A stretch of DNA of 64,000 bases from the NCBI RefSeq assembly GCF_001902635.1, contig NZ_MJAO01000021.1, positions 1-64,000 of the forward strand, read 5' to 3'. This stretch comes from Serratia marcescens. GTDB lineage: Bacteria > Pseudomonadota > Gammaproteobacteria > Enterobacterales > Enterobacteriaceae. Numbering within the stretch: the first letter of the stretch is position 1; each line of letters starts with the position of its first letter. This document shows, piece after piece, positions 2,060 to 17,739 of this stretch. Both the position numbers and the translations under genes were made by a program. The notes beneath the pieces are model-generated. The model was not told the origin of the DNA and did no database searches. It saw only the letters and a program-made list of their open reading frames with translations.

Positions 2060-2965
2060 ATGAGGGGCAGTGATTTCGCCGAGTTGCGCGCCTTTGCCGC
2101 GATTGTTGAGCACGGTGGTTTCGCCCGCGCCGCTGCACATTTGGGGATGTCCGCTTCGGCGCTCAGCCAAACGCTGCGCAACCTGGAGGAGCGTCTGGGT
2201 GTGCGTTTACTGAATCGCACCACCCGCAGCGTGGCGCTGACTGAAGCCGGAAGACAGATGTTGGCGCGCCTGACGCCCGCGATGGCCGAGATTGACGCGG
2301 CGGTGGCGCAGGCGGTCGAGCAACGCCAGAATCCCTCAGGCCTTTTGCGGCTTAATGTAACCCGCGTGGCGGCGTTACATTTTCTGGCGCCTTTGATCGC
2401 GCCGTTTCATCATCAATATCCTGATATTACGCTCGATCTCAATGTTGAGGAGCGGTTGGTGGATATCGTTGCCGGCGGTTTTGACGCCGGCGTGCGGCTG
2501 CACGAGAAACTGGCGAAAGATATGGTGGCGGTCAAGCTGGGCGGGGAGGTGCGGATGCGTGTCGTTGCTTCACCGGCGTATTTGGCGCGTCACGGCCGGC
2601 CGTCAACACCGGGCGATCTGCATCGACATCGCTGCTTGAATTACCGCTGGCCGACCAACGGCAGTGTGTATCGCTGGGAGTTTGAGTGCGACGGTGAAAA
2701 GCAGGAGATCGCCGTGGAAGGGCCGGTGACAGTCGATGAGCCGGAAGTCTTGGTGCGGGCTGCGATGGATGGGGCTGGCATTGCCTACCTGTTTGAGCAA
2801 CAGGTTGCCGCCGGTTTGGCCGATGGCCGGTTGTTGCCGCTGCTCGATGCCTGGACGCCGCCGTTCCCCGGTTTCTATCTGTACTATCCGGCAAACCGCC
2901 AGATGCCGCGCCCGCTGCGTGCTTTTATCGACTTCGTCCGTCAACAGGCAGAGCAGGGTGCGTAG
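2060..2965 (+). CDS. LysR-family transcriptional regulator
   Basis: Encodes 301 residues with an N-terminal winged helix-turn-helix (about residues 5-63, including the helix with LGMSASALSQTLRNLE) and a LysR substrate-binding domain (about 90-295). An upstream in-frame ATG at 2018 is rejected because the ATG at 2060 has a good GTAGGGAGA ribosome-binding site at 2046-2054. It resembles the YafC/DmlR-type LysR subgroup. Its divergent position suggests that it controls the neighbouring aldo/keto reductase gene, probably together with itself; the inducer is unknown. Confidence 0.88.
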   Translation: MRGSDFAELRAFAAIVEHGGFARAAAHLGMSASALSQTLRNLEERLGVRLLNRTTRSVALTEAGRQMLARLTPAMAEIDAAVAQAVEQRQNPSGLLRLNVTRVAALHFLAPLIAPFHHQYPDITLDLNVEERLVDIVAGGFDAGVRLHEKLAKDMVAVKLGGEVRMRVVASPAYLARHGRPSTPGDLHRHRCLNYRWPTNGSVYRWEFECDGEKQEIAVEGPVTVDEPEVLVRAAMDGAGIAYLFEQQVAAGLADGRLLPLLDAWTPPFPGFYLYYPANRQMPRPLRAFIDFVRQQAEQGA

Positions 2966-3083
2966 CGCGATTTTTTTGAATAACACCGTCAGTTTTATTC
3001 GGTATTCAGCCGTTGCGCGCTTGATTAGATTGAACGCGAGATGGGCGCCGTCGGCGCCTCCGTGCAATGAGTGGGGAGTTTTT

Positions 3084-3635
3084 ATGGCGAAGACAGTGGT
3101 GGTGTTTCATTCCGGCTACGGCCATACCGAGCGTTTGGCGAAAGTGGTGGCGGAAGGCGCCGGGGCGGAACTGATCGCCATCGATCAGGACGGCGATATC
3201 AGTGATGAAGCGTGGCAGAAACTGGATGAGGCGGCCGCCATCATCTTCGGCTCGCCGACCTATATGGGCGGCCCGTCCTGGCAATTCAAGAAATTCGCCG
3301 ACGCCAGCTCCAAAGCCTGGTTCGGCCGCAAGTGGCAGGACAAAGTGTTCGGCGGCTTTACCAACAGCGCCAGCCTGAACGGCGACAAGCAGGTGACGTT
3401 GATCGCGCTGCAGACGCTGGCTTCGCAGCACGGCGGCCTGTGGGTCAGCCTGGGGCTGCTGCCGTCCAACACCAAATCGGCGCAGCGCACCGACGTCAAC
3501 AACCTGGGCGGCTCGGTGGGGCTGCTGGTGCAGACCCCGGCGGATGCCGGCGTGGATGAGATGCTGTCGGGCGATCTGGCGACTGCCAAGCTCTATGGCC
3601 AGCGCGTGGCGGGCTTTGCCGCCAAACTGGCGTAA
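3084..3635 (+). CDS. Flavodoxin-family NAD(P)H:quinone oxidoreductase-like protein
   Basis: Encodes 183 residues with a flavodoxin fold. The FMN phosphate-binding loop follows the first strand (VVVFHSGYGHTERLAK), and a second flavin loop is seen in FGSPTYMGGPSWQFK. It is related to WrbA-type and NADPH-dependent FMN reductases, which use FMN to reduce quinones or other small electrophiles in the cytoplasm. The start is fixed by GGGGAG at 3073-3078. It lies 118 bases after the LysR gene on the same strand and could be its second target. The exact substrate is not visible. Confidence 0.8.
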   Translation: MAKTVVVFHSGYGHTERLAKVVAEGAGAELIAIDQDGDISDEAWQKLDEAAAIIFGSPTYMGGPSWQFKKFADASSKAWFGRKWQDKVFGGFTNSASLNGDKQVTLIALQTLASQHGGLWVSLGLLPSNTKSAQRTDVNNLGGSVGLLVQTPADAGVDEMLSGDLATAKLYGQRVAGFAAKLA

Positions 3636-3676
3636 GGCCGCGCGTTCATTTTCTCTGCACAATTGGCGCGTAAACT

Positions 3677-3751
3677 GCGAAATGTTATTAGCCTGCTTGG
3701 GCTAACACTGCATTTCGTACAAATATTCCCGGTTCCTAGGCCGGGTTTTTT
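3677..3751 (+). ncRNA. Candidate structured small RNA (first of a tandem pair) or structured 3' UTR
   Basis: A folded segment precedes a terminator. The outer stem pairs CGAAATG (3678-3684) with CATTTCG (3711-3717); the inner stem pairs TTAGCC (3688-3693) with GGCTAA (3700-3705). The terminator follows at 3728-3751. A -10-like TAAACT lies at 3671-3676 but no good -35 box is seen. It may be an independent small RNA, or the processed 3' end of the flavodoxin-like mRNA. I do not recognise it as a known enterobacterial small RNA. Confidence 0.35.
3728..3751 (+). terminator. Rho-independent terminator
   Basis: CCCGG (3728-3732) pairs with CCGGG (3741-3745) across an 8-base loop and is followed by six T. 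It ends the flavodoxin-like gene or the candidate small RNA in front of it. Confidence 0.75.
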
Positions 3752-3793
3752 GTTGCTAAGGTCTGCTTAAGCTTTCACCGCTATACTGCGCCG

Positions 3794-3876
3794 CAGCACA
3801 GACATGCAATATGACTGTGTCGTAACTGTCGATTTGCTGTTGTTCAAGCAAGCCCGCATTCAGCGGGCTTTTTTTG
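3794..3876 (+). ncRNA. Candidate Hfq-type small RNA (second of a tandem pair)
   Basis: An isolated unit of about 83 nt sits between two terminators. A -10 box TATACT (3782-3787) predicts a start near 3794. The RNA would begin with a stem-loop (CACAG 3797-3801 with CTGTG 3815-3819, extended inside by CAT/ATG), continue as about 30 unpaired bases, and end with a strong terminator hairpin and U tract (3852-3876). This is the usual build of an Hfq-dependent trans-acting RNA. The -35 region is poor, so an activator may be needed. No known small RNA family was recognised. Confidence 0.45.
3852..3876 (+). terminator. Rho-independent terminator
   Basis: AGCCCGC (3852-3858) pairs perfectly with GCGGGCT (3864-3870) across a 5-base loop, followed by six more T. 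No protein gene ends here, which points to a short non-coding transcript. Confidence 0.85.
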
Positions 3877-4214
3877 GGTTGTTATTGCACGGACGGCCCA
3901 GTTGCAGGAAAATAATCGCGTTGTTATTCAAACATCATTCAACGACCAATAACCACAAACTTATTAATGTAATTAACTCCCTTGCCGGCATATTACCGTT
4001 TTGCGCTATGCTGACAGCAGGGCTGGGCATTATTTCCCGGTGATTTGCCGTGGTTCCAGCCGGTGCTGCATTAGGCTAAGAAAAGTCTGTTAATTAAATG
4101 TTAATGCTTTTTATTGTTGATTTGTCTGGCTTTTTTGGTTGAAATTCGAGTTGTTTATCCCTCACTGGCCGGGCGAGAGAGTATGCGCATTTTTATTCTG
4201 GTTATTAGCACTGT
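3877..4214. other. AT-rich intergenic region upstream of the MASE1-GGDEF gene
   Basis: This 338-base gap follows the second terminator and is clearly more AT-rich than the neighbouring genes, as expected for a promoter region. No repeat or convincing ORF was found; the open frame at 3804-4043 crosses a terminator and has no ribosome-binding site. Confidence 0.4.
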
Positions 4215-5675
4215 ATGGGTAAGGCGATGAATGCCAGAATAAACGCCAGGCATGGCCTGCCGCTTACGGCTCAGCTGATCAATCTTTTCATGCTGGCCTT
4301 TTTACTTTCCCTGGTGGGTATTCTTAGCCGGCCGATAGGTTCGCTTTCTTTATTCTGGCCGGTGAATGCGATTCTGCTCGGCCTGCTGCTGCGCAAACCC
4401 GCTTATGCCTCGCCGCTCGGTTGGCTCACCACCTATATGGGCATGGTCGCCGCCGATCTCAGCACCGGCGAGGGCTGGCCCCTGGCGTTATGGCTGAATG
4501 CCTGCAACATGTCGCTGATCGCCGTCGGCTACGGCATCATGCTGATGTTGCCCCAATCTCAACGGCGCATGGGCAAACCCCAGGCAATACTCTATATGTT
4601 CAGCGCCAGCCTGGCCGGCGCGGCGGTGGCGTCGACGCTGTCGGTACTGCGCAACGACAGCCTGTACAACAACACGGTGGTGGTCGCCTGGCTGGCCTGG
4701 TTCAGTGAGCAGTTCTCGACGACGTTGCTGCTGTTGCCGGTGCTGATGGCGGCACCGCGGCTGAAGCAACTGTTGCGCATGCAGGTGCGTTGGCGCTTGA
4801 AAGGCTGCCTGCCGCTGCTGGCGCTGTTGCTGTCGCTGGTGTTCAGCGTTTATATCGGTGGGCCGGGTGCCATCGCCTTCCCGATCCCGGCGCTGCTGTG
4901 GTGCGCGGTGCGCTACCCGCTGTTCCCCGTGACGTTGCTGACGCTACTGACCGGCATGACCGAGATCAGCAGCATTTCCGCCAATCTGGTGCTGTATGAA
5001 ACGCCGAACAACCATAACGCCTTCCTCGACACGCTGATGTCCGCCCGATTGGGCATTGCTATGCTGGTGATGGGGCCGCTGATCCTTGCCAGCTCCATCG
5101 CCGCCAACCGTAAACTGATGCGGCGTCTGGAGCACAGCGCCAACCACGATTTCCTGACCGGGGTGCTGGCGCGCAGCGCGATGACGCGTAAAGCGGGCGA
5201 GCTGTTGGAGCACAAGCACCGCTCCAAAGAGGCGGTGTCGCTGCTGTTGATCGACATCGACCATTTCAAGCAGATCAACGATACGCACGGCCACAGCGCC
5301 GGCGATCAGGTGCTGGCGTCGTTCGCGCACATCGTGCGGCGCGAGCTGCGGCATGACCAGCTGTTCGGCCGTTTGGGCGGCGAAGAGTTCGCCATCATGT
5401 TGCCGCGCGCGCTGGCGGCGCAGGGGGTGGCGTTGGGGGAACATCTGCGCCGGCTGGTGGAAAAGGCGGAGCTGCAGGCAGAGGGCAAACAGACGTTGAA
5501 AATCACCATCAGCGTCGGTGTCGCCAGCCTGGCGATGAACGAAGTGAAATCGCTGGAGCAGTTAATGAATATGGCGGATATCGCGCTTTATCGCGCCAAG
5601 TCGCAGGGGCGTAATCGGGTGGAGTCGTTCAACGTGGTGAACGGCAACAGCGTCGAGCATATCCTGTTCCGCTAG
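4215..5675 (+). CDS. Membrane diguanylate cyclase, MASE1 sensor plus GGDEF domain
   Basis: Encodes 486 residues. Residues of about 15-315 form eight or so membrane helices of MASE1 type (FWPVNAILLGLLLRKPA near the start). The C-terminal 165 residues are a GGDEF domain with the active site written GGEEF in the segment FGRLGGEEFAIM, which is compatible with cyclic-di-GMP synthesis from two GTP. The position of the inhibitory RxxD site reads RHDQ, so product feedback through that site is probably lost. The ATG at 4215 has a weak ribosome-binding site; an in-frame ATG at 4227 is an alternative. It is preceded by a long AT-rich region and stands alone, so it probably has its own promoter. Confidence 0.88.
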   Translation: MGKAMNARINARHGLPLTAQLINLFMLAFLLSLVGILSRPIGSLSLFWPVNAILLGLLLRKPAYASPLGWLTTYMGMVAADLSTGEGWPLALWLNACNMSLIAVGYGIMLMLPQSQRRMGKPQAILYMFSASLAGAAVASTLSVLRNDSLYNNTVVVAWLAWFSEQFSTTLLLLPVLMAAPRLKQLLRMQVRWRLKGCLPLLALLLSLVFSVYIGGPGAIAFPIPALLWCAVRYPLFPVTLLTLLTGMTEISSISANLVLYETPNNHNAFLDTLMSARLGIAMLVMGPLILASSIAANRKLMRRLEHSANHDFLTGVLARSAMTRKAGELLEHKHRSKEAVSLLLIDIDHFKQINDTHGHSAGDQVLASFAHIVRRELRHDQLFGRLGGEEFAIMLPRALAAQGVALGEHLRRLVEKAELQAEGKQTLKITISVGVASLAMNEVKSLEQLMNMADIALYRAKSQGRNRVESFNVVNGNSVEHILFR

Positions 5676-5701
5676 GGCTCGACGCTAGGCTGTGCCGGCG
5701 C

Positions 5702-6181
5702 TTACAGGCTCTTCAGCGCTTTGATGGTCTCATCCATGTCGATCTCGTGCTCGGAGAAGGTATGGGTGGTGTTCTGGAAGGTAGTGATGGTCAGCATGCG
5801 CAGCGTTTGCACGGCCTGCGTTTTGTCTTCGGACTGCGGGCGAATGCGGTTCATCAGCAGGCCGACCGACAGCACGGTGTTCTCTTTATCCACGTCGGCC
5901 TTGACCGGTACTTCCTTGGTGAAGGTGTTGAAAGACTTGATGCTGGTGATCTTGATTCTTTCATTGGCGATGATGATGTATTTGCTGGGCGCCAACACTT
6001 TGACTGCATAAGCCGACGGGCCTTTGGTGTTGTTGGTCGGTTCGAAGGTCACCGCCGCGTTTTTCTTAATCAGCTCCGGGTTCTGCACTTTAATCACGTG
6101 AAAATAACGATTTTCTCCGTTCTCGTCGGTAATAAAGCCGAAGCCTTTGTCTTCAAAAAAAGTCGTTATCTTGCCGTTCAT
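5702..6181 (-). CDS. Cold-shock-domain protein with an unassigned C-terminal domain
   Basis: Encodes 159 residues. Residues 1-65 are a cold-shock OB-fold with the RNP1-like KGFGFIT and the RNP2-like RYFHV motifs, indicating single-stranded nucleic-acid binding. Residues of about 70-159 form a second domain that I cannot place in a family; typical Csp proteins stop near residue 70. The ATG at 6181 (MNGKITTFF) is chosen over an upstream in-frame codon at 6205, because the cold-shock fold begins there and GAGAATAG precedes it. It is convergent with the diguanylate cyclase gene, 26 bases between stops. Its role is unknown; RNA chaperone activity is an inference from the first domain. Confidence 0.8.
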   Translation of the reverse strand: MNGKITTFFEDKGFGFITDENGENRYFHVIKVQNPELIKKNAAVTFEPTNNTKGPSAYAVKVLAPSKYIIIANERIKITSIKSFNTFTKEVPVKADVDKENTVLSVGLLMNRIRPQSEDKTQAVQTLRMLTITTFQNTTHTFSEHEIDMDETIKALKSL

Positions 6182-6347
6182 CGCTATTCTCACAAAAGGG
6201 TTCAATACAGCGCTTATGATAGCGCGGAATGCCCTGCAGCGACAGATTGCGCGGGCGGCATTTAGTCATGCGATAACGGCATTTAGCGGCTTTCTCCCCA
6301 CATGCTATGTTCATGCTGACTTCATTCAATGCGAAAAAGGAATAGCG

Positions 6348-6857
6348 ATGGGCATCAAACGTCTCAATCACGCCGTGCTGTATGTCAGCGACGTGCGGCA
6401 GAGCGCCGACTTTTATCATCAGGTGCTGGGATTCAAGCTGAAGCCGTCCGACAGCCCCGAGCGGGCGGTGTTTACGCAGGCCGCCGATTCGGACAACGAC
6501 CACGATTTGGCGCTGTTCAGCAAGAACCTGGGCCAGCAGCGCGCCGGGGTGTTTCGCGCCAACGGCGAACCACCGGCGGAACATGAGCCACCGGCCGGGC
6601 TGTATCATCTGGCCTGGGAAGTGGACAGCCTGGAAGAGCTGGAGCGCATTCGCCACCAGCTGGCCGAACGCGGTATTCTCGGGCTGGAAGAGGATCACGG
6701 CGTACACAAAAGCATTTATGGTCACGATCCGGACGGGTTGCTGTTCGAAGTGACCTGGTTTATTCCGCCGGCGCTGCTGACCGAAGAGGATAAAAACCAG
6801 CAGGGGATCCGCCCGCTGGATTTCGCCGCCGAGAAGCGGCGTTTCGCCGGCCGGTAA
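6348..6857 (+). CDS. VOC-family (glyoxalase/dioxygenase-fold) protein
   Basis: Encodes 169 residues with two beta-alpha-beta-beta-beta modules. Likely metal ligands are His in RLNHAVLYVSD, His in GLYHLAWEVDS and Glu in LLFEVTWF, the pattern of vicinal-oxygen-chelate enzymes such as glyoxalase I, extradiol dioxygenases and fosfomycin-resistance proteins. The similarity to ring-cleaving dioxygenases (CatE-like) is the most evident, but the substrate cannot be deduced. The start at 6348 follows an AAAAGGA ribosome-binding site; the longer open frame from 6147 overlaps the divergent cold-shock gene and is not credible. No operon partner. Confidence 0.8.
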   Translation: MGIKRLNHAVLYVSDVRQSADFYHQVLGFKLKPSDSPERAVFTQAADSDNDHDLALFSKNLGQQRAGVFRANGEPPAEHEPPAGLYHLAWEVDSLEELERIRHQLAERGILGLEEDHGVHKSIYGHDPDGLLFEVTWFIPPALLTEEDKNQQGIRPLDFAAEKRRFAGR

Positions 6858-6893
6858 GCGGCTCAGGTGCGGGGCGCCGCGGCGCCCCGACGA

Positions 6894-7721
6894 TCACAGC
6901 ACTTTGTTGAGGAAGTTAACGGTGCGCGGATGCTGTGGCTGAGCCAGCACCTGTCTGGCGTCACCCTGTTCGACGATCCGCCCATCGACCATAAACACCA
7001 CCCGATCCGCCGCTTCGCGCGCAAAGCCGATTTCATGGGTGACTACCACTAGCGTGACGCCCAGATCCGCCAACCCCTTAATCACGTCCAGCACTTCGCC
7101 GACCAGCTCGGGATCGAGCGCGGAGGTCGGTTCATCGAACAGGATCACCTTCGGGTTCAGCGCCAGCGCGCGCGCGATGGCGATGCGCTGCTGTTGGCCG
7201 CCGGAGAGGTGGCGGGGGTAGGCGTCCGCTTTATGGCGCAGCCCGACGGTGTCCAACAGCTCATGGGCCACCGCTTTCGCCCGTTCGCGGGAGTGAATTT
7301 TGTGCACCACCGGCGCTTCGATGATGTTTTCCAGCACCGTCAGGTGCGGGAACAGGTTGAAATTTTGGAACACGTAGCCGACGTTGACGCGTTGCCGAAG
7401 GATGGCCTTTTCCTTCAGCTCATACAGCCGATTGCCCTTGCGGCGGTAGCCGACGTAGTCGCCGTCGATGCGGATAAACCCCTCATCGACGCGCTCCAGA
7501 TGGTTAATCGCCCGCAGCAGCGTCGATTTGCCGGAGCCGGAAGGGCCGAGGATCACGGTGACGGTGCCAGGCTGCAGCGTCAGGCTGACGTCGTCCAGCG
7601 CCTTGTGTTTGCCGAAGAACTTGCTCACGTTGCTGATTTCGATCAGGCCGCGTGCCGGCACCGGGGTGAGGTTGCGCGCCGGCTGCTCGGGCAAGGCGTA
7701 ATAATCAATGGCTTCAGACAT
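6894..7721 (-). CDS. Amino-acid-type ABC transporter ATP-binding protein (YxeO-like)
   Basis: Encodes 275 residues of a polar-amino-acid ABC transporter ATPase. Walker A is GPSGSGKST, the signature is LSGGQQQR, Walker B is [14 protein letters not shown] and the switch His lies in VVVTHEIGF. It drives import through the permease encoded 9 bases upstream and the binding protein two genes further back. It is the last gene of a leftward cluster with the same functional parts as Bacillus yxeKLMNOP, so the cargo is probably an S-modified cysteine or similar sulfur amino acid. That specificity is inferred from context only. The first 25 residues precede the usual domain start. Confidence 0.88.
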   Translation of the reverse strand: MSEAIDYYALPEQPARNLTPVPARGLIEISNVSKFFGKHKALDDVSLTLQPGTVTVILGPSGSGKSTLLRAINHLERVDEGFIRIDGDYVGYRRKGNRLYELKEKAILRQRVNVGYVFQNFNLFPHLTVLENIIEAPVVHKIHSRERAKAVAHELLDTVGLRHKADAYPRHLSGGQQQRIAIARALALNPKVILFDEPTSALDPELVGEVLDVIKGLADLGVTLVVVTHEIGFAREAADRVVFMVDGRIVEQGDARQVLAQPQHPRTVNFLNKVL

Positions 7722-7730
7722 GCGGGTCTC

Positions 7731-8618
7731 CTAACGTTTTAACCAGCCGGCCAGTTTCTGCCAGGGCGTCGGCGGCAGTTCGCGCACCGCGCCCCGGGCG
7801 AAATAGCGCTCGATGTAGTATTGGATCACCGACAGCGCGGTGGTGATAAACAGATACCAGACGGTGGCCACCATCAGCAGCGGTATCACCTGCTGGGTGC
7901 GGTTATAGATCACCTGGATGGTGTAAAACAGCTCCGGCAGCGCCAGCACATAAACGATCGAGGTGCCTTTCGCCAGGCTGATGATCTCGTTGAAGCCAGT
8001 CGGAATAATGGAACGCAGCGCCTGCGGCAGAATGATGCGGAAGGTGCGGCGATAGCCCGGCAGACCCAGTGCCGCCGCCGCTTCGTGCTGGCCGTCATCC
8101 ACGCCTAAAATGCCACCGCGGATGATCTCGGCGGTGTAGGCGGACTGCACCAGCGTCAGGCCCAGCACCGCCACGGCGAATTGGCCGAGGATGTCGATGG
8201 TCGGGTAGCTGGCGAATACCACTGAGGTGAAGGGAATGCCCAGCGAGATGGCGTCGTACAGGTAGGAAAAGTTGTACAGGATGATCAGCACCAGGATCAG
8301 CGGCAGCGAGCGAAACAGCCAGATATACCCCCAGGCCAGCGACGCCAGCAGATAAGAGCGCGACAGCCGCGCCAGCGCCAGCAGGGTGCCGAACAGGATA
8401 CTGAACAGCGTGCCGAGCAGCGTCAGCAGCAGGGTTTGCCCCAGCCCCGCCAGCACCGCCGGCGCGAAGAACCACTCGGCGAACACGCCCCATTCCCAGC
8501 GCGCGTTGCCCGCCACCGACTGCACGATAGCGGCCAGAATCAACAGCGAAAACAGCGCGCCGATCAGCCGCAGCGGATAGCGGGCGGGAACCACTTTCAA
8601 GACTTCTTGTTTGGACAT
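7731..8618 (-). CDS. Amino-acid-type ABC transporter permease (YxeN-like)
   Basis: Encodes 295 residues with about five to six membrane helices and the permease coupling loop near EIIRGGILGVDDGQHEAAAALG, typical of His/Glu/Asp/Arg/opine-type permeases (HEAAAALG is the EAA motif). It is longer than the usual 220-residue members because of an N-terminal extension with an extra hydrophobic segment. The start at 8618 (MSKQEVLK) follows AGGAG with 7-base spacing; the in-frame codon at 8696 is rejected because it lies within the coding end of the acetyltransferase gene. It probably works as a homodimer with the downstream ATPase and the binding protein of this cluster. Confidence 0.87.
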   Translation of the reverse strand: MSKQEVLKVVPARYPLRLIGALFSLLILAAIVQSVAGNARWEWGVFAEWFFAPAVLAGLGQTLLLTLLGTLFSILFGTLLALARLSRSYLLASLAWGYIWLFRSLPLILVLIILYNFSYLYDAISLGIPFTSVVFASYPTIDILGQFAVAVLGLTLVQSAYTAEIIRGGILGVDDGQHEAAAALGLPGYRRTFRIILPQALRSIIPTGFNEIISLAKGTSIVYVLALPELFYTIQVIYNRTQQVIPLLMVATVWYLFITTALSVIQYYIERYFARGAVRELPPTPWQKLAGWLKR

Positions 8619-8649
8619 CTCGGATCTCCTGATACAGATAAAAAGGGCC

Positions 8650-9177
8650 TTAGGCGATTTTCCTTTCCGACGCGCAACAACACGCGTCCTCTGCAATCAG
8701 GCTTTTGCGGAACGGCAGGCGGCCATCGTAGGGCGGGCGGCCGTATACCTCGCTGTCGACGGTGGGATCGAACTGCGGCTGATAGCCGTTGCTCAGATAC
8801 AGGCCCACCGCTTCGGGCTGGCGAAAGCCGGTGGTCAGATAGAGCCGGCGATACCCCTGCGCCAGCGCCCGCGTTTCCAGCTGCTGCAATACCCGCTGCG
8901 CCAGGCCCTGGCGGCGCAGATCGCTGCGCGTCCAGATGCGCTTCAGCTCGGCGGTCTGCGCGTCAAAGCGCTTGAAGGCGCCCATGGCGATCGGCGCACC
9001 GGCGCGCAGCAGCACGATGAAGGCGCCCTGTGGCGGCGCGTACAAATCCAACGGTTCCGGTTCCTGGTCACCAAAATAGTCGCCGTAACGTTGGCGATAC
9101 TCGCCGAACAGCCCTTCGATCACCGGCGCGATCAGCGGGTCGGTCGGCAGCATCTGAATGTATGTGTCTTGCGTCAT
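8650..9177 (-). CDS. GNAT-family N-acetyltransferase (YxeL/SnaB-like)
   Basis: Encodes 175 residues of a GNAT fold. The acetyl-CoA pyrophosphate loop is in IWTRSDLRRQGLAQRVLQQLE, followed by the strand LTTGFRQPEAVGLYLSNGYQP with the usual C-terminal alpha-4/beta-7 pattern. Its start codon overlaps the stop of the binding-protein gene by ATGA, so the two are translationally coupled. In the Bacillus pathway the acetyltransferase N-acetylates S-(2-succino)cysteine before the monooxygenase acts; the same step is inferred here from the gene set. Confidence 0.8.
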   Translation of the reverse strand: MTQDTYIQMLPTDPLIAPVIEGLFGEYRQRYGDYFGDQEPEPLDLYAPPQGAFIVLLRAGAPIAMGAFKRFDAQTAELKRIWTRSDLRRQGLAQRVLQQLETRALAQGYRRLYLTTGFRQPEAVGLYLSNGYQPQFDPTVDSEVYGRPPYDGRLPFRKSLIAEDACCCASERKIA

Positions 9178-10106
9178 TGCGCCTCCTGGTCGCCCAGGCC
9201 GGGCGGGTTGATTTCCGACTGCGCAAGGCGTTCGACGCTTTCGCCCCAGCGGTTGAGCACCTGATCGTACTGCCCGCTGCGGATCACACCGTTCAGCGCT
9301 TCGTTCACCGCCTGCACCAAGCCGTTGCCTTTACGGGTGGTAACGGCGATGTGCGCCGCCTTCGGCCAACCGCCTTCCACCGTGCCCGCCAGCCGGGTGC
9401 GGCCGTTCAGCGTCGCTTTATAGGCGCCCAGCACGTTCGGCCCGAAGTAAGCGTCGGCCCGGCCGGACTGGATCGCCAGCGTGGCGGCCGCATCGTCGGT
9501 CACGTAGATCGGCTGGAAGGGTTTGAGCCCCTGCTGCCGGTTCTGCTTGTCCCATGCCAGCAAGATTGCTTCCTGATTGGTGCCGGAGCCGACGATAATT
9601 TTTAATCCGGCGATATCGGCAGGCTGTTTGATCGTCGCGATCTTGCCGCCGGTTTTGACGTAAAAACCGAGCGAATCGATACGGTAGGTGGCGAAGTCGA
9701 AGCGGGTTTTGCGCTCTTTGGTCACGGTGACGTTGGTGATGGCCGCGTCATACTTGCCGGACGCAACCCCCAGCGGCCAGTCTTCCCACGAGGTTTGCAC
9801 CACGTTCAGCGCCAGGCCTAGGCTGTCGGCTACCAGCTGCGCGATATCCACTTCGCTGCCGATCAGCCGCCGGTTGTCGGCGGCGAACAGCGCCAGCGGC
9901 GGCGTGTTGAGCGCGGCGATCGCGACGGTGAATTGGCCCGGCTTCACGAAGTGGAAATCGGCCGGCAGTTTGGCGATCGCCTGCGGGTTCTTCGGCGCGT
10001 GGATCGGGGTTTCATTGGCCTGCAAATCGATGCCGGTGCCCGCCTGTGCGGCGCCGGTCAGGCTCAGCAAGGCCGCCACGAGGGCGGCAGTAACGGTTTT
10101 CTGCAT
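9174..10106 (-). CDS. ABC transporter substrate-binding protein, amino-acid type (YxeM-like)
   Basis: Encodes 310 residues with a Sec signal peptide (about residues 1-22, cleavage after AAQA) and a family-3 solute-binding fold. The conserved domain carries SEVDIAQLVADSLGL and YDAAITNVTVTKERK, the region that in this family contacts the ligand carboxylate and amino groups. It acts in the periplasm and hands ligand to the permease at 7731. Its stop overlaps the acetyltransferase start (ATGA). It is longer than typical members by about 40 residues, with a C-terminal tail after the domain. Ligand inferred only from context: a sulfur or S-modified amino acid. Confidence 0.86.
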   Translation of the reverse strand: MQKTVTAALVAALLSLTGAAQAGTGIDLQANETPIHAPKNPQAIAKLPADFHFVKPGQFTVAIAALNTPPLALFAADNRRLIGSEVDIAQLVADSLGLALNVVQTSWEDWPLGVASGKYDAAITNVTVTKERKTRFDFATYRIDSLGFYVKTGGKIATIKQPADIAGLKIIVGSGTNQEAILLAWDKQNRQQGLKPFQPIYVTDDAAATLAIQSGRADAYFGPNVLGAYKATLNGRTRLAGTVEGGWPKAAHIAVTTRKGNGLVQAVNEALNGVIRSGQYDQVLNRWGESVERLAQSEINPPGLGDQEAQ

Positions 10107-10132
10107 AGCGGGTATCCCTGAAAGCGATCTTA

Positions 10133-11458
10133 TTATTGGGAGAATCTGTTCAACGGGCGCTTCAGGCCCAGGTGCTCGCGCAGCGTGTCGCCGTGGTACG
10201 CCTGGCGGAACAGGCCGCGCTGTTGCAGAATCGGCACCACCCGATCGACGAAGTGGCCGAAGGCGTTGGGCGTACCGCCGCTGATGATGAAACCGTCGGC
10301 GGCTTCGCGGTCGAACCAGTGTTGCAGGCCGTCCGCCACCGCTTCCGGCGTGCCGCTGAACACCGGGCGCGGCGAAGCGGCTTCGAGCGCCACCTGGCGC
10401 AGCGTGAGGTTACGCTCGCGGGCATTGCGCTTGATGGCGTCGGTGGTGCTGCGGAAGCTGTTTTGCCCCAGATCGCCGATGTCCGGGAAGGGGGCATCCA
10501 GTGGATGGCGGGCGAAGTCGTAATGCTCGAAGTAACGGCCGAGGTAGTTGAGGGCGTTCTCGATGCTGACCAGGCGGGCGGTCTCCTGATACTGGCGTTC
10601 GACGTCCGCGTCGTCGTTACCGACGATCACGCTGACGCCCTGGAAGATGCGCAGATCGTCAGGTTCGCGCCCCTGTTCCCCCAGCTGCCGCTTCACGTCC
10701 TGATAAAAGTCCTGCGCCTGCTCCAGCGTGTCGTGATGGGTGAAGATCGCATCGGCGTGTTGGGCCGCCAGCCGTTTGCCGTCTTCAGAGGCGCCGGCCT
10801 GGAACAGGATCGGGCGGCCCTGCGGCGTGCGGCCGATGTTCAGCGGCCCCTGTACCGAGAAGAACTCCCCCTGGTGATTGAGGGTGTGCAGCGTTCCGGC
10901 GCGGAAAAATTCGCCGCTGGCCTTATTACGCACGAAGGCGTCGTCTTCCCAGGAGTCCCACAGGCCTTTGGCGACGTCGAGAAACTCGCCGGCGATACGG
11001 TACCGCAGGCTGTGTTCCGGGTGTTCGGCGCGCGAGAAGTTTTTGGCCGAACCTTCCAGCGGCGAGGTTACCACGTTCCAACCGGCGCGCCCGTTGCTCA
11101 GGTGATCGAGGCTGGCGAACTGACGGGCGACGGTGAACGGATCGCTGTAGGAGGTGGAGAGGGTGCCCACCAGGCCGATTTTATCGGTGGCGGCGGACAG
11201 CGCGGCCAGCAGGGTGAGCGGCTCGAAACGGTTAAGAAAATGCGGAATGGATTTTTCGTTGATATATAACCCGTCGGCGACAAACACGAAATCGAATTTC
11301 CCCTGTTCGGCTTTTTTCGCCGTGGCGATATTAAATTCGAGGTTGATGCTGGCGTCGGCGGTGGCGTCCGGGTGACGCCAGGCGGACATATTTCCCGATG
11401 CGCCATGCAGAATGGCGCCCAGCCGCAATTGCCGTTGATGATTCGCACTGTTGCTCAT
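10133..11458 (-). CDS. LLM-class flavin-dependent monooxygenase (NtaA/SnaA/YxeK-like)
   Basis: Encodes 441 residues of the bacterial-luciferase-like family in the NtaA/DszA/SnaA subgroup. Typical segments are [19 protein letters not shown] at the start, [17 protein letters not shown], the [12 protein letters not shown] loop and [15 protein letters not shown]. These two-component enzymes take FMNH2 from a separate reductase and insert oxygen to break C-N or C-S bonds. In Bacillus, YxeK cleaves N-acetyl-S-(2-succino)cysteine to oxaloacetate and N-acetylcysteine. No flavin reductase is in this cluster. The 188-base gap upstream holds a terminator-like hairpin, so the gene may begin a separate transcript from the M20 gene. 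Confidence 0.87.
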
Positions 11459-11598
11459 GGTGATTATCCTGTCATGCGTCGCAGAGGCGCGTGGTGTCTG
11501 AGGTGTCCACTATTGATGAGCACAGGCGGGATGTAAAACAACAAAACAGCATATTCAAATGTTGAAAGTTGCAAATATCATGGTGAAGAAAATAATAA

Positions 11599-11626
11599 TG
11601 CCCGACGCGGCATCAGCGGCGTCGGG
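11599..11626 (-). terminator. Probable terminator or attenuator after the M20 gene
   Basis: CCCGACGC (11601-11608) pairs with GCGTCGGG (11619-11626). On the minus strand the hairpin is followed by a T-rich stretch (rich in A on the plus strand at 11586-11599). It lies 21 bases after the M20 amidohydrolase stop and may end that transcript or weaken readthrough into the monooxygenase gene. Confidence 0.45.
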
Positions 11627-11646
11627 GAAATACTATTTTCGGTTAT

Positions 11647-12810
11647 TCAGGCGTTGCTGAGGGCTTTATCCGATGCGGTGCTTAATTGCTGCAATGCGCG
11701 TTCCGCCAGCAGCGTGAAATATTGCGCCGCCGGGAATATCGCCCGCTCATCGGGATTGAAACGCGGATGATGCAGGCCGAATTCGCTGGCGGAGCCGATG
11801 CTGACAAATACACCTGGCACATGGTGCAGATAAAGCGCGAAATCCTCACCGCCCATCTGCAACTCCGCCTCTTCGACCCGGTAGCCGGCCTCGGCGGCGA
11901 CGGTTTTGCTGAACGCCGCCCAGCGGGCGTCATTGATCACCGCCGGCGGCCCCGGTTGCCAGCGGAGCTCGGCCTGCGCCCCCAGCGCGGCGGCGACGCC
12001 GTCGATCACCTGGCGCATTTTTTCCGGCACCTGACGGCGCACCGCATCGCTGTGGGTGCGAACCGTGCCTTCCAGTTCAACGGTTTGCGGCAGCACGTTC
12101 CAGGTATTGCCGCCTTCGATGCGTGTGACGCTCACCACCAGGGATTCCAGCGAGCTGAAGCTGCGGCTGGGCAACGTTTGCAGCGCGCCGACGATCTGGC
12201 TGGCGGTGACGATGGTGTCGACGCCCTGTTCCGGTTTGGCGGCGTGGGCACCTTTGCCGGTGATCAGGATCCGGAAGCGATCGACGTTGGCGTAGAACGG
12301 CCCGGCACGGGTGGCGAAGGTGCCGATGGGCAGTTCCGGCGCATTGTGCAGGCCAAATACTGCGGCGACGTTGTCCAGCGCGCCGGCGTCGATCAGATGC
12401 CGGGCGCCGTTAAAGGTCTCTTCTGCCGGCTGGAAGAAGAGGCGAACCGTACCGGGCAGTTCGGCCTCGCGCGCTTTCAGCAGGTGTGCGGCGCCGAGCA
12501 TCACCGAGGTATGAAAGTCGTGGCCGCAGGCGTGCATCACGCCACTGTTTTGCGAACTGAAGGGCACGTCGGCGATCTCGTCGATCGGCAGGGCGTCGAT
12601 ATCGCCGCGCAGTGCGATGATCGGCCCCTTGCCGCTGCCGATCTCGGCCACTACGCCGGTTTTCAACGCCAGCGGCAGAAGGCGAACGCCTGCGGCTTCC
12701 AGCCAGCGGGTCAGCCGGGCGGTGGTGGCGAATTCGTGATTGGAAAGTTCCGGGTTCTGGTGCAGTTCACGCCGATAGGCGATGATCTGGTCTGCCAATT
12801 GGCTGGTCAT
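11647..12810 (-). CDS. M20-family amidohydrolase (YxeP-like N-acyl-amino-acid deacylase)
   Basis: Encodes 387 residues of the M20D peptidase/amidohydrolase family. Metal-binding and catalytic motifs are visible: LRGDIDALP, VMHACGHDFHTSV, FQPAEETFNGA with the catalytic Glu pair, and GGEDFALYL near the C-terminus. A dimerisation domain occupies about residues 175-285. Relatives remove acyl groups from N-acyl amino acids such as hippurate, N-acetylcysteine or N-acetyl-diaminopimelate. Together with the acetyltransferase and monooxygenase of this cluster, the likely role is removal of acetyl from N-acetylcysteine, giving cysteine. It is the first gene of the leftward cluster and has its own upstream region facing cspE. 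Confidence 0.87.
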   Translation of the reverse strand: MTSQLADQIIAYRRELHQNPELSNHEFATTARLTRWLEAAGVRLLPLALKTGVVAEIGSGKGPIIALRGDIDALPIDEIADVPFSSQNSGVMHACGHDFHTSVMLGAAHLLKAREAELPGTVRLFFQPAEETFNGARHLIDAGALDNVAAVFGLHNAPELPIGTFATRAGPFYANVDRFRILITGKGAHAAKPEQGVDTIVTASQIVGALQTLPSRSFSSLESLVVSVTRIEGGNTWNVLPQTVELEGTVRTHSDAVRRQVPEKMRQVIDGVAAALGAQAELRWQPGPPAVINDARWAAFSKTVAAEAGYRVEEAELQMGGEDFALYLHHVPGVFVSIGSASEFGLHHPRFNPDERAIFPAAQYFTLLAERALQQLSTASDKALSNA

Positions 12811-13155
12811 AGGCTTGGCTCATAGTGGGAATCAGCCCTAACCCTAGTGCAGAGGCGGCAGAAGCAAAAAGACCATCTGGTTATATTTCATAGCGATTGT
12901 GTTTGCATGGAGGCGTCAACGGCGGGGGGAACGGGACGATTTGGGCGTTCGCTCGCCGTTCGCCGACCCGGAGAGAGGATCAGGCTGGAACGGTGACAAA
13001 TCACAACCGGTGCAATCAATTTACACCGTGCAACACGGATTTTTTCACTCTTTATCGGATTTCTGTGATCGCGGTGGTGGACAAAATCCCGCCTGCTTGC
13101 TGTACTGTAATCGACACAGGTTTTGTGTCTTTCATTCACGTTAAAGGTAAGTTTG
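12811..13155. other. Divergent promoter region between the M20 cluster and cspE
   Basis: 345 bases without a credible protein gene. It must hold the promoter of the leftward sulfur cluster and that of cspE. On the cspE side, GACACA (13113-13118) pairs with TGTGTC (13124-13129), a small hairpin in what is probably the cspE leader; a -10-like TGTAAT lies just before it at 13106-13111. No recognised operator was seen near the M20 start. Confidence 0.4.
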
Positions 13156-13365
13156 ATGTCTAAGATTAAAGGTAGCGTTAAGTGGTTTAATGAATCCAAA
13201 GGTTTCGGCTTCATTACCCCGGAAGATGGTAGCAAGGACGTTTTCGTTCACTTCTCTGCCATCGCTAGCAACGGTTTCAAAACTCTTGCTGAAGGCCAGC
13301 GTGTAGAATTTGAAATCACGAACGGTGCCAAAGGGCCATCTGCCGCTAACGTTACTGCTATCTAA
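13156..13365 (+). CDS. cspE: Cold-shock-like protein CspE
   Basis: Encodes 69 residues, nearly identical in my memory to E. coli CspE: it begins [19 protein letters not shown] and carries RNP1 (KGFGFI) and RNP2 (VFVHF). It binds single-stranded nucleic acid, melts RNA hairpins and acts as an antiterminator in the cytoplasm. The ATG at 13156 follows AAAGGTAAG; the in-frame codon at 13123 is in the leader. A strong terminator follows within 25 bases, so it is monocistronic. Its neighbour crcB two genes on keeps the E. coli order cspE-crcB-tatE. Confidence 0.95.
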
Positions 13366-13385
13366 GCTACGTAGCTGAATTTCTT

Positions 13386-13412
13386 AAAACCCGCTCATTG
13401 AGCGGGTTTTTT
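13386..13412 (+). terminator. Rho-independent terminator of cspE
   Basis: AACCCGCT (13388-13395) pairs with AGCGGGTT (13401-13408) across a 5-base loop. It is followed by T on the plus strand and by A/T on the other side, so it may also serve the convergent MFS gene ending at 13423. Confidence 0.85.
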
Positions 13413-13422
13413 ATTGGGCGCG

Positions 13423-14613
13423 TTATGCCTCGTGGTGGCGGGCCAACAGGCTGAACAGCAGGATGGCGATGGCGTAGCAGCCGACGATGGTCAACGCCAT
13501 CGACAGGCTGGAGGTGCCGCCCAGCCCGGTGAGCGGCACGGCGCAGGCGCCGAGTGCGAACATACAGACGCCGATCAGCGCCGAAGCGCTGCCTGCTTTG
13601 TCCCCCTGGCTTTGCATCGCCAATGAAGAGGCGGTCGGGCCGACGATGCCGATCACCGCCACCGAGAAGAACAGCGGCACTAACAACAACGGCAGTGGCG
13701 CATGTAGCGCAGCAGCCAACAGCAGCAGCAGCGACGCGACGGCCGCCAGCGTCAGACCGCTTTTCAACACCCGGCGTTCCCCCCAACGCGAACTGAGGCG
13801 GCTGGCCAGCTGCGCTGCGATGATCAGCCCGACGCCGTTAATGGCGAAGCACAGGCTGAACATTTGCGGGCTGAGGCCGTAAATCTGCTGCAAGACGAAA
13901 GGCGAGGCACCAATATAGGCGAACATGCCGGCCATCACGAAACCCTGCGTCAGGCACAGGCCCATGAAATAACGCTGGGTCAGCAAACCGCCCAATGACA
14001 TCAGCATCGCCAGGATGCCACCCTGGCTGCGGCGCTCTACCGGCAGGGATTCGCGCAGTTTCAGCGCCGACAGGCTGAACAGCAGCACCGCAATGGCGGC
14101 CAGCACGCCGAAGATGCCGCGCCAGTTCATCACCTGCAGCATAACGCCGCCCAGCACCGGGGCGACGATCGGCGCCAGGCCGTTGACCAGCATCAGCAGG
14201 GCGAAGAAACGGGTCAGTTCATGGCCGGCGTACAGATCGCGGGCGATGGCGCGGGAGATGACCGCACCGCCGGCGCCGGCGATGCCCTGCAGCAGGCGGG
14301 CGACCAACAACTGGTCGATGGTGGGGGCCAGCGCGCACCACAGTGAGGCACCCAGCAGCAGAATCAGCGACAGCAGCAGCGGGCGCATGCGGCCCAGCTT
14401 GTCACTGTAGGGGCCGAAAATCAGCTGGCCGACGCCCAGGCCGAGCAACCCGGCGGTCAGGCTGAGCTGCGCGGCGGCGGTGGAGGTATTCAGCTCGCCC
14501 GCCATCTCCGGCAGGGCAGGCAGGTAGAGATCGGTGCACAGCGGCCCCAGCGCGGCCAACAGGCCAAGCACGACGGCGTACACCAGACGTTGTCTGGCTA
14601 AGTGTCTGGTCAT
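13423..14613 (-). CDS. Bcr/CflA-type MFS multidrug efflux transporter
   Basis: Encodes 396 residues with twelve hydrophobic segments. MFS motif A appears between helices 2 and 3 as GPYSDKLGRMRP, preceded by the DHA1 hallmark LCTDLYLPALPEMA in helix 1, and the antiporter segment GIAGAGGAVISRAIARDLY follows in helices 4-5. It is expected to be an inner-membrane proton-drug antiporter. It starts 6 bases after a TetR gene on the same strand, so the pair forms an operon probably repressed by TetR and induced by a substrate drug. The substrate is unknown. It interrupts the E. coli cspE-crcB neighbourhood. Confidence 0.9.
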   Translation of the reverse strand: MTRHLARQRLVYAVVLGLLAALGPLCTDLYLPALPEMAGELNTSTAAAQLSLTAGLLGLGVGQLIFGPYSDKLGRMRPLLLSLILLLGASLWCALAPTIDQLLVARLLQGIAGAGGAVISRAIARDLYAGHELTRFFALLMLVNGLAPIVAPVLGGVMLQVMNWRGIFGVLAAIAVLLFSLSALKLRESLPVERRSQGGILAMLMSLGGLLTQRYFMGLCLTQGFVMAGMFAYIGASPFVLQQIYGLSPQMFSLCFAINGVGLIIAAQLASRLSSRWGERRVLKSGLTLAAVASLLLLLAAALHAPLPLLLVPLFFSVAVIGIVGPTASSLAMQSQGDKAGSASALIGVCMFALGACAVPLTGLGGTSSLSMALTIVGCYAIAILLFSLLARHHEA

Positions 14614-14619
14614 GGGAGG

Positions 14620-15216
14620 TTAGGGTTTCCTGAACAGGTGAGAAATGGCCTGCTGATACAGATCGCGCAGCAGGATCGCATCGGCTTTTTGCGTGGTAAG
14701 GATACGGTAACCGGTGCCTTCGCTCATGACGGCGATAAACTCTACCCGTGCGGCGATCTCTTCCGCGCTGAAATGGGGATACAGCCGCTGCAGGTTGTGG
14801 CACACGTGGCGAAACAGCCGCGCTTCCGCATCGCTGAGCATTTTGGCTACCACCGGATTGCGCGTGGCCTCGGCGGTCACTTCCAGCATCAGCATGTGGT
14901 CAGTTTCGCTCTCGCCCGGCTGTTGAAACAGCGTGCGCGCCGCCAGCGTGCCGGCGATCAGGTTGATGTGATCGCCGAGGTTTTCCAGGCGCTGCATCTT
15001 GCTGGCGATGATGCGATTGACGATCTCCTCGATAATCGCGTCTTTGTTGGCGAAATAGCGATAGATCTGTCCGACGCTGAGCTGCGAACCCTGGGCGATT
15101 TCCGCCATGCTGGCGGCGTGGAAACCGTGGCGGCGGAAACTGGTTTTCGCCGCTTCGACGATCTGGTCGCGGCGCGCCTGCACTTTGGCCTGTTTGCTGT
15201 CGTTGGGGGAGAGCAT
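14620..15216 (-). CDS. TetR-family transcriptional repressor
   Basis: Encodes 198 residues. The N-terminal helix-turn-helix is in IVEAAKTSFRRHGFHAASMAEIAQGSQLSVGQIYRYFANKDAII (about residues 19-62), the standard TetR DNA-binding fold; the remaining helices form the ligand and dimer domain. It is the first gene of a two-gene operon with the efflux transporter 6 bases downstream, so it probably represses both from the promoter at about 15220-15300. The ligand cannot be told. Confidence 0.9.
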   Translation of the reverse strand: MLSPNDSKQAKVQARRDQIVEAAKTSFRRHGFHAASMAEIAQGSQLSVGQIYRYFANKDAIIEEIVNRIIASKMQRLENLGDHINLIAGTLAARTLFQQPGESETDHMLMLEVTAEATRNPVVAKMLSDAEARLFRHVCHNLQRLYPHFSAEEIAARVEFIAVMSEGTGYRILTTQKADAILLRDLYQQAISHLFRKP

Positions 15217-15336
15217 CTGCCGATCCTTTGCTACGCGTGAGTCGGGTTCACATTTTGGGTGTGAACGTTCATTCTCAATTGTAGTGCAACTGCGGGCAAG
15301 GGGGCAAGGTGAACAGGCGATGCGGGGAAAAGGCGT

Positions 15337-15432
15337 TTAAGCGAACAGATAGGATTTGATAAAGGCGGCGACGATCAGCACGCACAGCGTAACGGTGAGC
15401 GCTTCGGTGGCGGTTTTCGGCAGGCTAAACAT
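15337..15432 (-). CDS. Unrecognised 31-residue single-span membrane peptide
   Basis: A short frame starts with ATG at 15432 and reads MFSLPKTATEALTVTLCV and on to SYLFA before a TAA. Residues of about 9-25 form one hydrophobic helix, with a basic Lys near each end. The ribosome-binding sequence GGATGAG lies inside a perfect 11-bp inverted repeat just upstream (15440-15468), and a -10-like CATAAT lies at 15469-15474 on the minus strand. It does not match the small membrane proteins I can recall (AcrZ, MgtS, YohP, TisB and others). It lies downstream of crcB on the same strand. Expression is not proven. Confidence 0.45.
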   Translation of the reverse strand: MFSLPKTATEALTVTLCVLIVAAFIKSYLFA

Positions 15433-15439
15433 AGCGGTT

Positions 15440-15468
15440 TCTCATCCAGTCAGGAATACTGGATGAGA
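15440..15468 (-). promoter_or_regulatory. Perfect 11-bp hairpin over the ribosome-binding site of the small ORF
   Basis: The arms at 15440-15450 and 15458-15468 pair perfectly with a 7-base loop. On the minus strand the second arm contains GGATGAG, ending about 7 bases before the ATG at 15432, so folding would hide the ribosome-binding site. No T tract follows, so it is not an intrinsic terminator of crcB. It could instead be a protein-binding palindrome. Confidence 0.5.
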
Positions 15469-15503
15469 TTATGCGCATGCAAGATTAAGGAAACATTAAG
15501 GGT

Positions 15504-15887
15504 TTAGCGCCCGTTGATCCACATCACCAGCATGAAAGCCAGCAGCGTCATCGCCAGCGAACCGGCCAGGTTGAGCAGCATGTTGGCCAGCGCCCAGCCG
15601 AAGCGGCCATCCTGCATCAGGTACACCACCTCCAGCGAAAAGGTGGAGAAGGTGGTCAGGCCGCCGCAGAACCCGGTGGTGATCAGTAATTTCCAGGTGG
15701 GATCCAGGTGCGTCATGCGGGTGAAAATCGCCATCGCCAGGCCGATGATAAAACCGCCGATCAGATTGACCATCAGCGTACCGAGCGGAATGTGGGCGTT
15801 CAGCGGATTCATTTTCATGCTTACCGCCCAGCGTAAAACGCTGCCGACGCCGCCGCCGATAAATACGGCCAGTAAAGAGCTCAACAT
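15504..15887 (-). CDS. crcB: Fluoride ion channel CrcB (Fluc)
   Basis: Encodes 127 residues with four membrane helices and the CrcB signature [16 protein letters not shown], plus [10 protein letters not shown] and [11 protein letters not shown]. Fluc proteins form dual-topology dimers in the inner membrane that let fluoride leave the cell. The ATG at 15887 follows AAGGTAG; the upstream TTG at 15905 is rejected. A fluoride riboswitch precedes it at 15973-16020, so expression should rise with fluoride. The order cspE-crcB-tatE is that of E. coli, although there the riboswitch is, as far as I recall, absent. Confidence 0.94.
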
Positions 15888-15972
15888 GGGGCAACTACCT
15901 TTCAATCAGAGAAATTCACGGGACTCGGAAAGGGACAGGCGTAACGCTACGCGCCTCTCTCCGAGAGGTTAC

Positions 15973-16020
15973 GTAGACATCATCAGCCTGTGAAGGCGGT
16001 TAGGGAGGAATGTCATCTCC
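15973..16020 (-). promoter_or_regulatory. Fluoride (crcB) riboswitch
   Basis: Read on the minus strand, the segment begins GGAGATGACATTCCTCCC, continues with AACCGCC, a short hairpin, and GGCTGATGATGTCTAC. This is the crcB-motif consensus: the GGxGAUGxxAUUCCUCC pseudoknot core, the AACCGCC hairpin arm, and the conserved CUGAUGAxxxCU. It lies 85 bases before the crcB start. A further hairpin (CCTCTC with GAGAGG, 15954-15968) follows and may be the expression platform. Confidence 0.9.
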
Positions 16021-16110
16021 AGCGTGCCGCACGGCCTTTTTGCCGTACCTGATGGATGTTACACCCAATGCCGCCTATTTTGTAGTATCGACATCCTGCG
16101 AGGTAAACCC

Positions 16111-16215
16111 ATGGAAATCAGAGCGGCGCGCCTGGACAACCGGCATGCTATCGCCGAGTTGATGACGGCGCTGGATTATTCCGGCACCTATTTTGCCAAG
16201 TTATTAAGTCAGTAA
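16111..16215 (+). pseudogene. N-terminal remnant of a GNAT acetyltransferase
   Basis: A 34-residue frame starts MEIRAARLDNRHAIAELM and ends soon after YFAKLLSQ. The beginning is that of a GNAT N-acetyltransferase (first strand and helix 1), with an AGGTAA ribosome-binding site, but the acetyl-CoA-binding part is missing. The next gene on the other strand ends at 16217. It looks like the remains of a gene cut by a deletion; expression as a peptide is possible but has no support. Confidence 0.5.
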
Positions 16216-16216
16216 G

Positions 16217-17718: not shown

Positions 17719-17739
17719 TCCCGTTTGGTGGCGCGCAAT

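Follow-up and report, generated by a model that had tools for sequence, protein, structure and literature searches.

A probable CmoO/CmoJ-type S-alkylcysteine salvage cluster of Serratia marcescens with an unlinked sulfoxidase gene

The gene cluster considered here occupies positions 6894 to 12810, on the minus strand, of a 64,000-nucleotide stretch of Serratia marcescens DNA (contig NZ_MJAO01000021.1, positions 1 to 64,000; hereafter, the window). Two Bacillus systems are its closest described relatives. The first is the ytm/ytn (cmo) cluster, which consists of YtmI, TcyJKLMN, CmoO (YtmO), YtnI, CmoJ (YtnJ), RibR, YtnL, and YtnM, with YtnJ taken to be CmoJ in line with the arrangement of genes at the Bacillus inaquosorum locus. 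The substrate of CmoJ is the sulfoxide made by CmoO (PMC10863075), and what exactly the ytn cluster acts on has been called unclear in Bacillus as well (PMC12757645). The second is the yxeKLMNOPQ (scm) system, for which PMC9706529 gives two criteria, a YxeK with >50% identity to that of B. subtilis and a minimum of three clustered components out of five (YxeK, YxeL, YxeMNO, YxeP, and YxeQ). The same paper describes a variant scm locus in Dickeya and Enterococcus in which an S-(2-succino) lyase replaces the monooxygenase; this variant shares its GNAT acetyltransferase, M20 amidohydrolase, and ATP-binding cassette (ABC) transporter genes with the window. It is highly probable that the Serratia cluster is a form of the CmoO/CmoJ salvage of S-alkylcysteines known from ytm/ytn and not a yxe/scm cluster, because its monooxygenase falls in the CmoJ clade, a CmoO orthologue is encoded in the genome, and the two genes co-occur in a sample of the family. 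The cluster would then be an enterobacterial form of a known pathway, dispersed in this genus and ordinary in kind. No description of the pathway in Serratia or other enterobacteria surfaced in searches of the open-access literature (PubMed Central).

The enzyme that decides the chemistry is an LLM flavin monooxygenase of the CmoJ type (positions 10133 to 11458, minus strand; 441 amino acids [aa]), which is predicted to cleave the C-S bond of an N-acetyl-S-alkylcysteine sulfoxide. Its best match among solved structures was YtnJ/MoxC (582 bits), followed by 3sdo (494 bits), whose designation as a "nitrilotriacetate monooxygenase" is the depositors' own and which was in none of the trees. Lower scores were obtained for DszA (290 bits), the dimethyl-sulfide monooxygenase DmoA (235 bits), the EDTA monooxygenase EmoA (216 bits), and the riboflavin lyase RcaE (187 bits), and an enzyme of any of these four types was rejected on comparison with the YtnJ score. 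NCBIfam named no more than the broad NtaA/DmoA subfamily. The protein was 57% identical to CmoJ of B. inaquosorum and 49% identical to YxeK of the same organism, the two Bacillus loci having been picked out by gene order (for YxeK, by the succession of yxeK to yxeQ), and it was 75 to 77% identical to counterparts in Klebsiella, Pantoea, and Chimaeribacter. A quick tree was built from the window, 67 further loci, and 23 of the top 80 of 547 loci; 89 of these 91 sources yielded 98 monooxygenase rows, to which one outgroup row was added. The window protein and Bacillus CmoJ were placed in a clade of 63 rows with a Shimodaira-Hasegawa-like approximate likelihood ratio test (SH-aLRT) support of 100, and a CmoO gene was present within 6.5 kb in 49 of these 63 rows; YxeK fell in a separate clade of 7, with YxeQ nearby in 6. 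This tree had no bootstrap and carried a warning of two long branches meeting at the outgroup. A more careful tree of 40 rows gave a support of 100/100 to a CmoO-linked side of 26 rows, 22 of them linked to CmoO. These results indicated that, judged by its sequence, the window monooxygenase is on the CmoJ side and is not an orthologue of YxeK.

The sulfoxidase that would supply such an enzyme is usually encoded next to it. Of 15 non-Serratia enterobacterial regions, 13 had a CmoO-like gene of the MsnO8 family next to the cluster, as did records of Klebsiella (where the gene is interrupted, L115 4862-5868), Pantoea, and Chimaeribacter and those of Neorhizobium, Phyllobacterium, Comamonas, Rhizobium, and Pantoea piersonii. 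The window genome encodes two strong MsnO8-family proteins, one YhbW-like and the other on contig C19 (G000:C19:68412-69398). The C19 protein was 60 to 64% identical to CmoO of Pantoea and Chimaeribacter (64% to the Chimaeribacter cluster CmoO) and 42% identical to that of Bacillus. In a tree of 53 rows, which was limited to proteins of 300 to 380 aa and so left out the interrupted Klebsiella copy, the C19 protein and nine others of the genus nested within the clade (100/98) formed by the CmoO proteins of CmoJ clusters, with the YhbW-like rows elsewhere. The C19 protein is therefore a CmoO orthologue, with a sulfoxidase activity that is predicted from its sequence. The window assembly is a draft that has the cluster and cmoO on separate contigs; two further genomes of the genus have the cluster monooxygenase and cmoO 1.4 Mb apart on one contig. 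Among 25 genomes of the genus, the monooxygenase and the second MsnO8 protein were found together in 21 and were both missing from the other 4. A MocR-like gene (GntR plus aminotransferase, recognized by eye) was also observed next to the distant cmoO (L180 5034-6416, plus strand), the 3' ends of the two genes overlapping by four bases.

Co-occurrence was examined in a family sample of 295 genomes, with cutoffs of E <= 1e-150 for the monooxygenase and E <= 1e-70 for CmoO. The monooxygenase was detected in 63 genomes and CmoO in 62, with both in 61, the monooxygenase only in 2, CmoO only in 1, and neither in 231; sulfoxidase and splitting enzyme are thus found together in about a fifth of the family genomes, this genus included, where they are not neighbors. 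In 57 of the 61 genomes, the two genes were no more than 5.8 kb apart, and the other four were the window genome and three more of its genus. In two of the one-sided genomes, the partner gene was interrupted: CmoO was in two overlapping frames adjoining the monooxygenase in G802, and the monooxygenase was in three frames adjoining CmoO in G936. These interrupted genes of G802 and G936 lie at L298 10114-11141 and L299 8372-9707. In the third (G575), only monooxygenases were found, on contigs of 10 and 12 kb. The conserved company extended to other members of the cluster: among the 15 non-Serratia enterobacterial regions, M20 accompanied the enzyme in 11 and a window-lineage GNAT did so in 12. 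An order-wide search (E <= 1e-150) returned 16 of 295 genomes, the window's own included; a class-wide search (E <= 1e-120) returned 1 of 274, the window's own, and a 2.9-kb piece (window 9900-12810) had no match in a collection of 5,426 E. coli genomes.

The same enzymes as those of the window were present in clusters of Klebsiella, Pantoea, Chimaeribacter, other enterobacteria, some rhizobia, and Comamonas (L115-L117, L200-L210, L266, L267, L269, L270, and L272), and in the Klebsiella, Pantoea, and Chimaeribacter clusters the GNAT, binding protein, permease, and ATPase were 58 to 81% identical to those of the window. Unlike the window cluster, these clusters have CmoO next to M20 or CmoJ, and most of them also encode a second binding protein; the permease and ATPase can be fused in rhizobia. 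Compared with Bacillus ytm/ytn, the Serratia set shares the CmoJ orthologue in the cluster, the CmoO orthologue in the genome, an M20 deacetylase, a GNAT, and an amino acid ABC importer, whereas its cmoO is unlinked, its GNAT belongs to a lineage other than that of YtmI, it has one permease gene, and its binding protein is of another subfamily; no RibR-like gene was found in the window cluster region. Two further arrangements were observed in these searches. In L230 and L231 (genomes G575 and G527), a second enterobacterial layout, the genes for M20, substrate-binding protein, GNAT, permease, and ATPase run divergently from that for a rhizobial-type monooxygenase, which is 57% identical to the window enzyme; a CmoO gene was observed only in L231. 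A branch of the CmoJ clade with 70 to 72% identity to the window enzyme (L211 8014-9342, L213 2120-3472, L214 8049-9389, and L265 7501-8862) has large ABC ATPases (about 535 to 571 aa) nearby and, in three of the four loci, a YtmI-like GNAT; such a version may be supplied by a peptide-type importer.

The transporter genes of the window encode a periplasmic amino acid-binding protein (9174-10106, minus strand; 310 aa, with a signal sequence recognized by eye), an amino acid ABC transporter permease (7731-8618, minus strand; 295 aa), and the ATPase (6894-7721, minus strand; 275 aa), all three of subfamilies found in CmoO clusters. In other enterobacteria, most linked clusters encode two binding proteins; the genus cluster has one or none. 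Among 10 genomes of the genus that were searched, a clustered binding protein at 85 to 100% identity was present in 4, and no such clustered match was detected in the other 6, in two of which there was no room for the gene. All 10 encode two further related binding proteins elsewhere, at 65 to 68% identity. Those of the window genome (G000:C2:250129-251025, L300, and G000:C1:12545-13435, L301) were 66 to 68% identical to the clustered protein. In a quick tree of 53 rows containing the lone genes of three genomes, L301, L303, and L305 grouped with the second binding protein of linked clusters and L300, L302, and L304 with the binding protein of the L230/L231 arrangement (SH-aLRT of 100 in both cases). 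No window-like permease or ATPase was found within about 6 kb of the lone genes, the sole exception being an ATPase match of 37% identity at the L304 edge. Parts of the cluster thus appear, from these comparisons, to be dispersed in this genus, and the lone binding proteins may serve the window transporter.

The GNAT acetyltransferase (8650-9177, minus strand; 175 aa) likely N-acetylates an imported S-alkylcysteine. It belongs to a lineage of enterobacterial CmoO clusters and alpha- and betaproteobacterial loci (with CmoO in five of these six) and scored 200.8 bits with the profile of that lineage; the YtmI profile gave a remote 11.9 bits, and the YxeL profile did not find it. The M20 protein (11647-12810, minus strand; 387 aa) is a likely N-acetylcysteine deacetylase, with identities of 49% to YxeP and 48% to YtnL. 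Its closest solved structure was 1ysj (protein yxeP), an alignment to which showed retention of the metal-site motifs, and it was placed in an enterobacterial clade of 22. ScmP (YxeP), YhaA, and YtnL are all reported to deacetylate N-acetylcysteine (PMC12757645), and since YxeP and YtnL share this activity, M20 does not tell the two pathways apart. A flavin reductase, SsuE, is encoded at G000:C1:150664-151167 (236.7 bits, above the curated cutoff) and may serve the pathway.

Taken in order, these components would make up the following pathway. The ABC transporter would import an S-alkylcysteine delivered by the clustered binding protein and perhaps by the two related ones encoded elsewhere; the GNAT would then N-acetylate it, and CmoO from contig C19 would oxidize the N-acetyl product to the sulfoxide. 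With reduced flavin, which could come from SsuE, and O2, the window CmoJ would split the C-S bond of the sulfoxide to give an aldehyde and N-acetylcysteine sulfenic acid, a reaction assigned by analogy with that described in PMC10863075. After reduction, M20 would remove the acetyl group to release cysteine. In this genus, cmoO and the gene for the second binding protein would have moved out of the cluster, which cmoO still adjoins in most of the other family members sampled.

Several observations weigh against this assignment. There is no CmoO in the window cluster or in any of five other clusters of the genus, and the linkage of CmoO to CmoJ is not exclusive, since a few YxeK-like enzymes (L109, L288, L292, and L293) also have CmoO within 6.5 kb. 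The YhbW-like gene is missing from the same 4 of 25 genus genomes as the monooxygenase and the second MsnO8 protein, so that genome reduction may explain the shared absence; three of the four genomes are under 2.6 Mb. No motif common to the monooxygenase and CmoO promoters stood out from chance (11 of 15 matches, equalled in 141 of 500 shuffles), the alignments having drawn on 21 genomes for the monooxygenase and on 16 loci, several of which share a genome, for CmoO. The distant cmoO would thus be tied to the cluster by orthology and co-occurrence alone. Furthermore, the 61 genomes with both genes are related and not independent, so that the Fisher value for co-occurrence cannot be read as a probability (by genus, 29 of 154 had the monooxygenase and 28 had CmoO), and some CmoO clusters have no M20 (L212, L268, L273, L298, and L299). 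With respect to individual proteins, M20 is about as close to YxeP as to YtnL, the ATPase is 50% identical to YxeO and 48% identical to the ytm one, and the single permease gene is the yxe layout. Profile-profile comparison of the GNAT gave probabilities of 84 for YxeL and 96 for YtmI, which makes it a remote relative of both, and, since its lineage differs from either, an S-alkylcysteine is a putative substrate of the pathway.

S-alkylcysteine sulfoxides occur in Allium and Brassica plants, and the cluster could take such compounds, imported as sulfoxides, without any need for a sulfoxidase, whose gene would then have been free to drift away in Serratia. The detachment of cmoO in the window's genus only (in all four genomes with both genes, and with none in the five other cluster regions) is in keeping with this idea, as is the action of CmoJ on a sulfoxide (PMC10863075). 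However, each of the 21 monooxygenase-bearing genomes of the genus also encodes a second MsnO8-family protein, and it was a CmoO by the tree in the 10 that were tested, which argues that the sulfoxidase is still needed; we consider this alternative improbable. We also entertain as an unlikely proposition that the substrate of the proteobacterial CmoO/CmoJ clusters, in which the GNAT lineage is distinct and several binding proteins occur, is an S-substituted cysteine other than that of Bacillus and that the dispersed Serratia set can also use ready-made plant S-alkylcysteine sulfoxides without a first oxidation. The unlinking of the sulfoxidase and the extra binding proteins in this genus is a useful twist. 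An unlinked cmoO permits a clean genetic test of whether CmoJ needs CmoO in the cell.

A preliminary description of the locus had equated it with the yxe pathway, in which a YxeK-type enzyme splits N-acetyl-S-(2-succino)cysteine in one step to N-acetylcysteine and oxaloacetate. Its claim of a full yxeK-to-yxeP part list held at the family level, and the logic of acetylation, splitting, and deacetylation is common to both; YxeP is the closest solved structure of the M20 protein, and the one permease gene and the lack of CmoO in the cluster are as in yxe. Of the five scm components, the families of the GNAT, ABC, and M20 genes were present, although the GNAT was not found by the YxeL profile and M20 was equally near YtnL. 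A YxeK orthologue was absent from the cluster, as was any match to YxeQ in window 2001-18000; the monooxygenase, at 49% identity to YxeK of B. inaquosorum, compares with the >50% to the B. subtilis protein required in PMC9706529. The comparison of the monooxygenase with YxeK, which the description had itself proposed, placed the enzyme with YtnJ/CmoJ. Forcing three rows of the Serratia genus and six YxeK rows together in the 40-row tree cost 205 log-likelihood units, and the joint clade was rejected by the approximately unbiased (AU) test (p-AU of 8.4e-6). Diagnostic columns were defined as those with one residue conserved in at least 95% of 32 CmoJ rows and a different residue in every one of 7 YxeK rows, with the window excluded from the rows; the window had the CmoJ residue in 18 of 18 and a YxeK-like residue in 0 of 18. 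Membership of yxe/scm was rejected on the monooxygenase trees, the AU test, and these columns, and the reading as a whole is quite improbable. This corrects a likely misassignment, in which the part list is yxe-like at the family level yet the chemistry-deciding enzyme belongs to the sulfoxide-splitting type. What survives as the best reading is the broader proposal that an S-substituted cysteine is imported, N-acetylated, cleaved at its C-S bond by a flavin-dependent enzyme, and deacetylated, and the suggestion that the Serratia version may handle another S-modified cysteine fits as well. The binding protein and permease, which had been noted as longer than those of Bacillus, are so because they belong to the subfamilies of CmoO clusters.

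A yxe-like cluster was observed separately in the genus. A second monooxygenase, 44 to 45% identical to that of the window, was present in 12 of 25 genus genomes, and no such match was detected in the window genome at E <= 1e-60. In three contexts (L232-L234, from G010, G003, and G020; about 5,400 to 9,340 in L232), a YxeQ-like gene (38 to 39%) and a YxeK-like monooxygenase (48 to 49% to YxeK) were accompanied by binding protein, permease, and ATPase genes and by no M20 or GNAT. In both monooxygenase trees, these enzymes were outside the YxeK clade proper, on a long separate branch.

That M20 and the GNAT are unrelated neighbors of a monooxygenase serving another thioether or an amine (of the NtaA, EmoA, RcaE, or DszA type) is very improbable, since the probable separate transcription of M20, the broad NCBIfam assignment, and the 3sdo score are outweighed by EmoA, riboflavin lyase, and DszA scores far below that of YtnJ, which also speaks against the RcaE-type grouping named as a refuting result in the preliminary description, and by the retention of M20 and the GNAT with the enzyme in other enterobacteria.

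The layout of the cluster was confirmed as first described, with all six frames on the minus strand and the families of all six proteins supported by Pfam and NCBIfam; the ATGA overlap (9174-9177) joins the binding protein gene to the GNAT gene. The gene order, M20-CmoJ-binding protein-GNAT-permease-ATPase, recurred in five other regions of the genus, and hence the cluster is not a chance arrangement: all six genes were in this order in three (L215-L217), and in L218 and L219 the remaining five were, with no space for a binding protein gene between those for the monooxygenase and the GNAT. A 188-base gap (11459-11646) sets the M20 gene apart from the other five. It contains a terminator-like hairpin with a T-rich stretch, predicted by folding (11601-11626, minus strand; -28.2 kcal/mol for the folded stretch, z = -7.15), and a promoter-like site, TTTACA-17-AATAGT, upstream of the monooxygenase gene in a conserved intergenic block (11509-11537, minus strand). 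With these two elements in the gap, M20 probably has its own transcript. Alignment of 21 genus genomes, the window included, showed by eye a G+C-rich inverted repeat with a T-rich tail in both sequence groups and conservation in all 21 of a part of the gap that includes the TTTACA element. Since three promoter-like sites were found in the region compared with a shuffled mean of 1.7, this conservation is the stronger evidence for a promoter. Upstream of M20 lie a small, divergent cold-shock-like gene, recognized by eye (13156-13365, plus strand), a Bcr/CflA-type MFS efflux gene (13423-14613, minus strand), and a gene for a TetR regulator with a weak likeness to BetI (14620-15216, minus strand). 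At the other end of the cluster, a frame at about 6348-6857 (plus strand), convergent with the ATPase gene, resembled by eye a glyoxalase/VOC protein.

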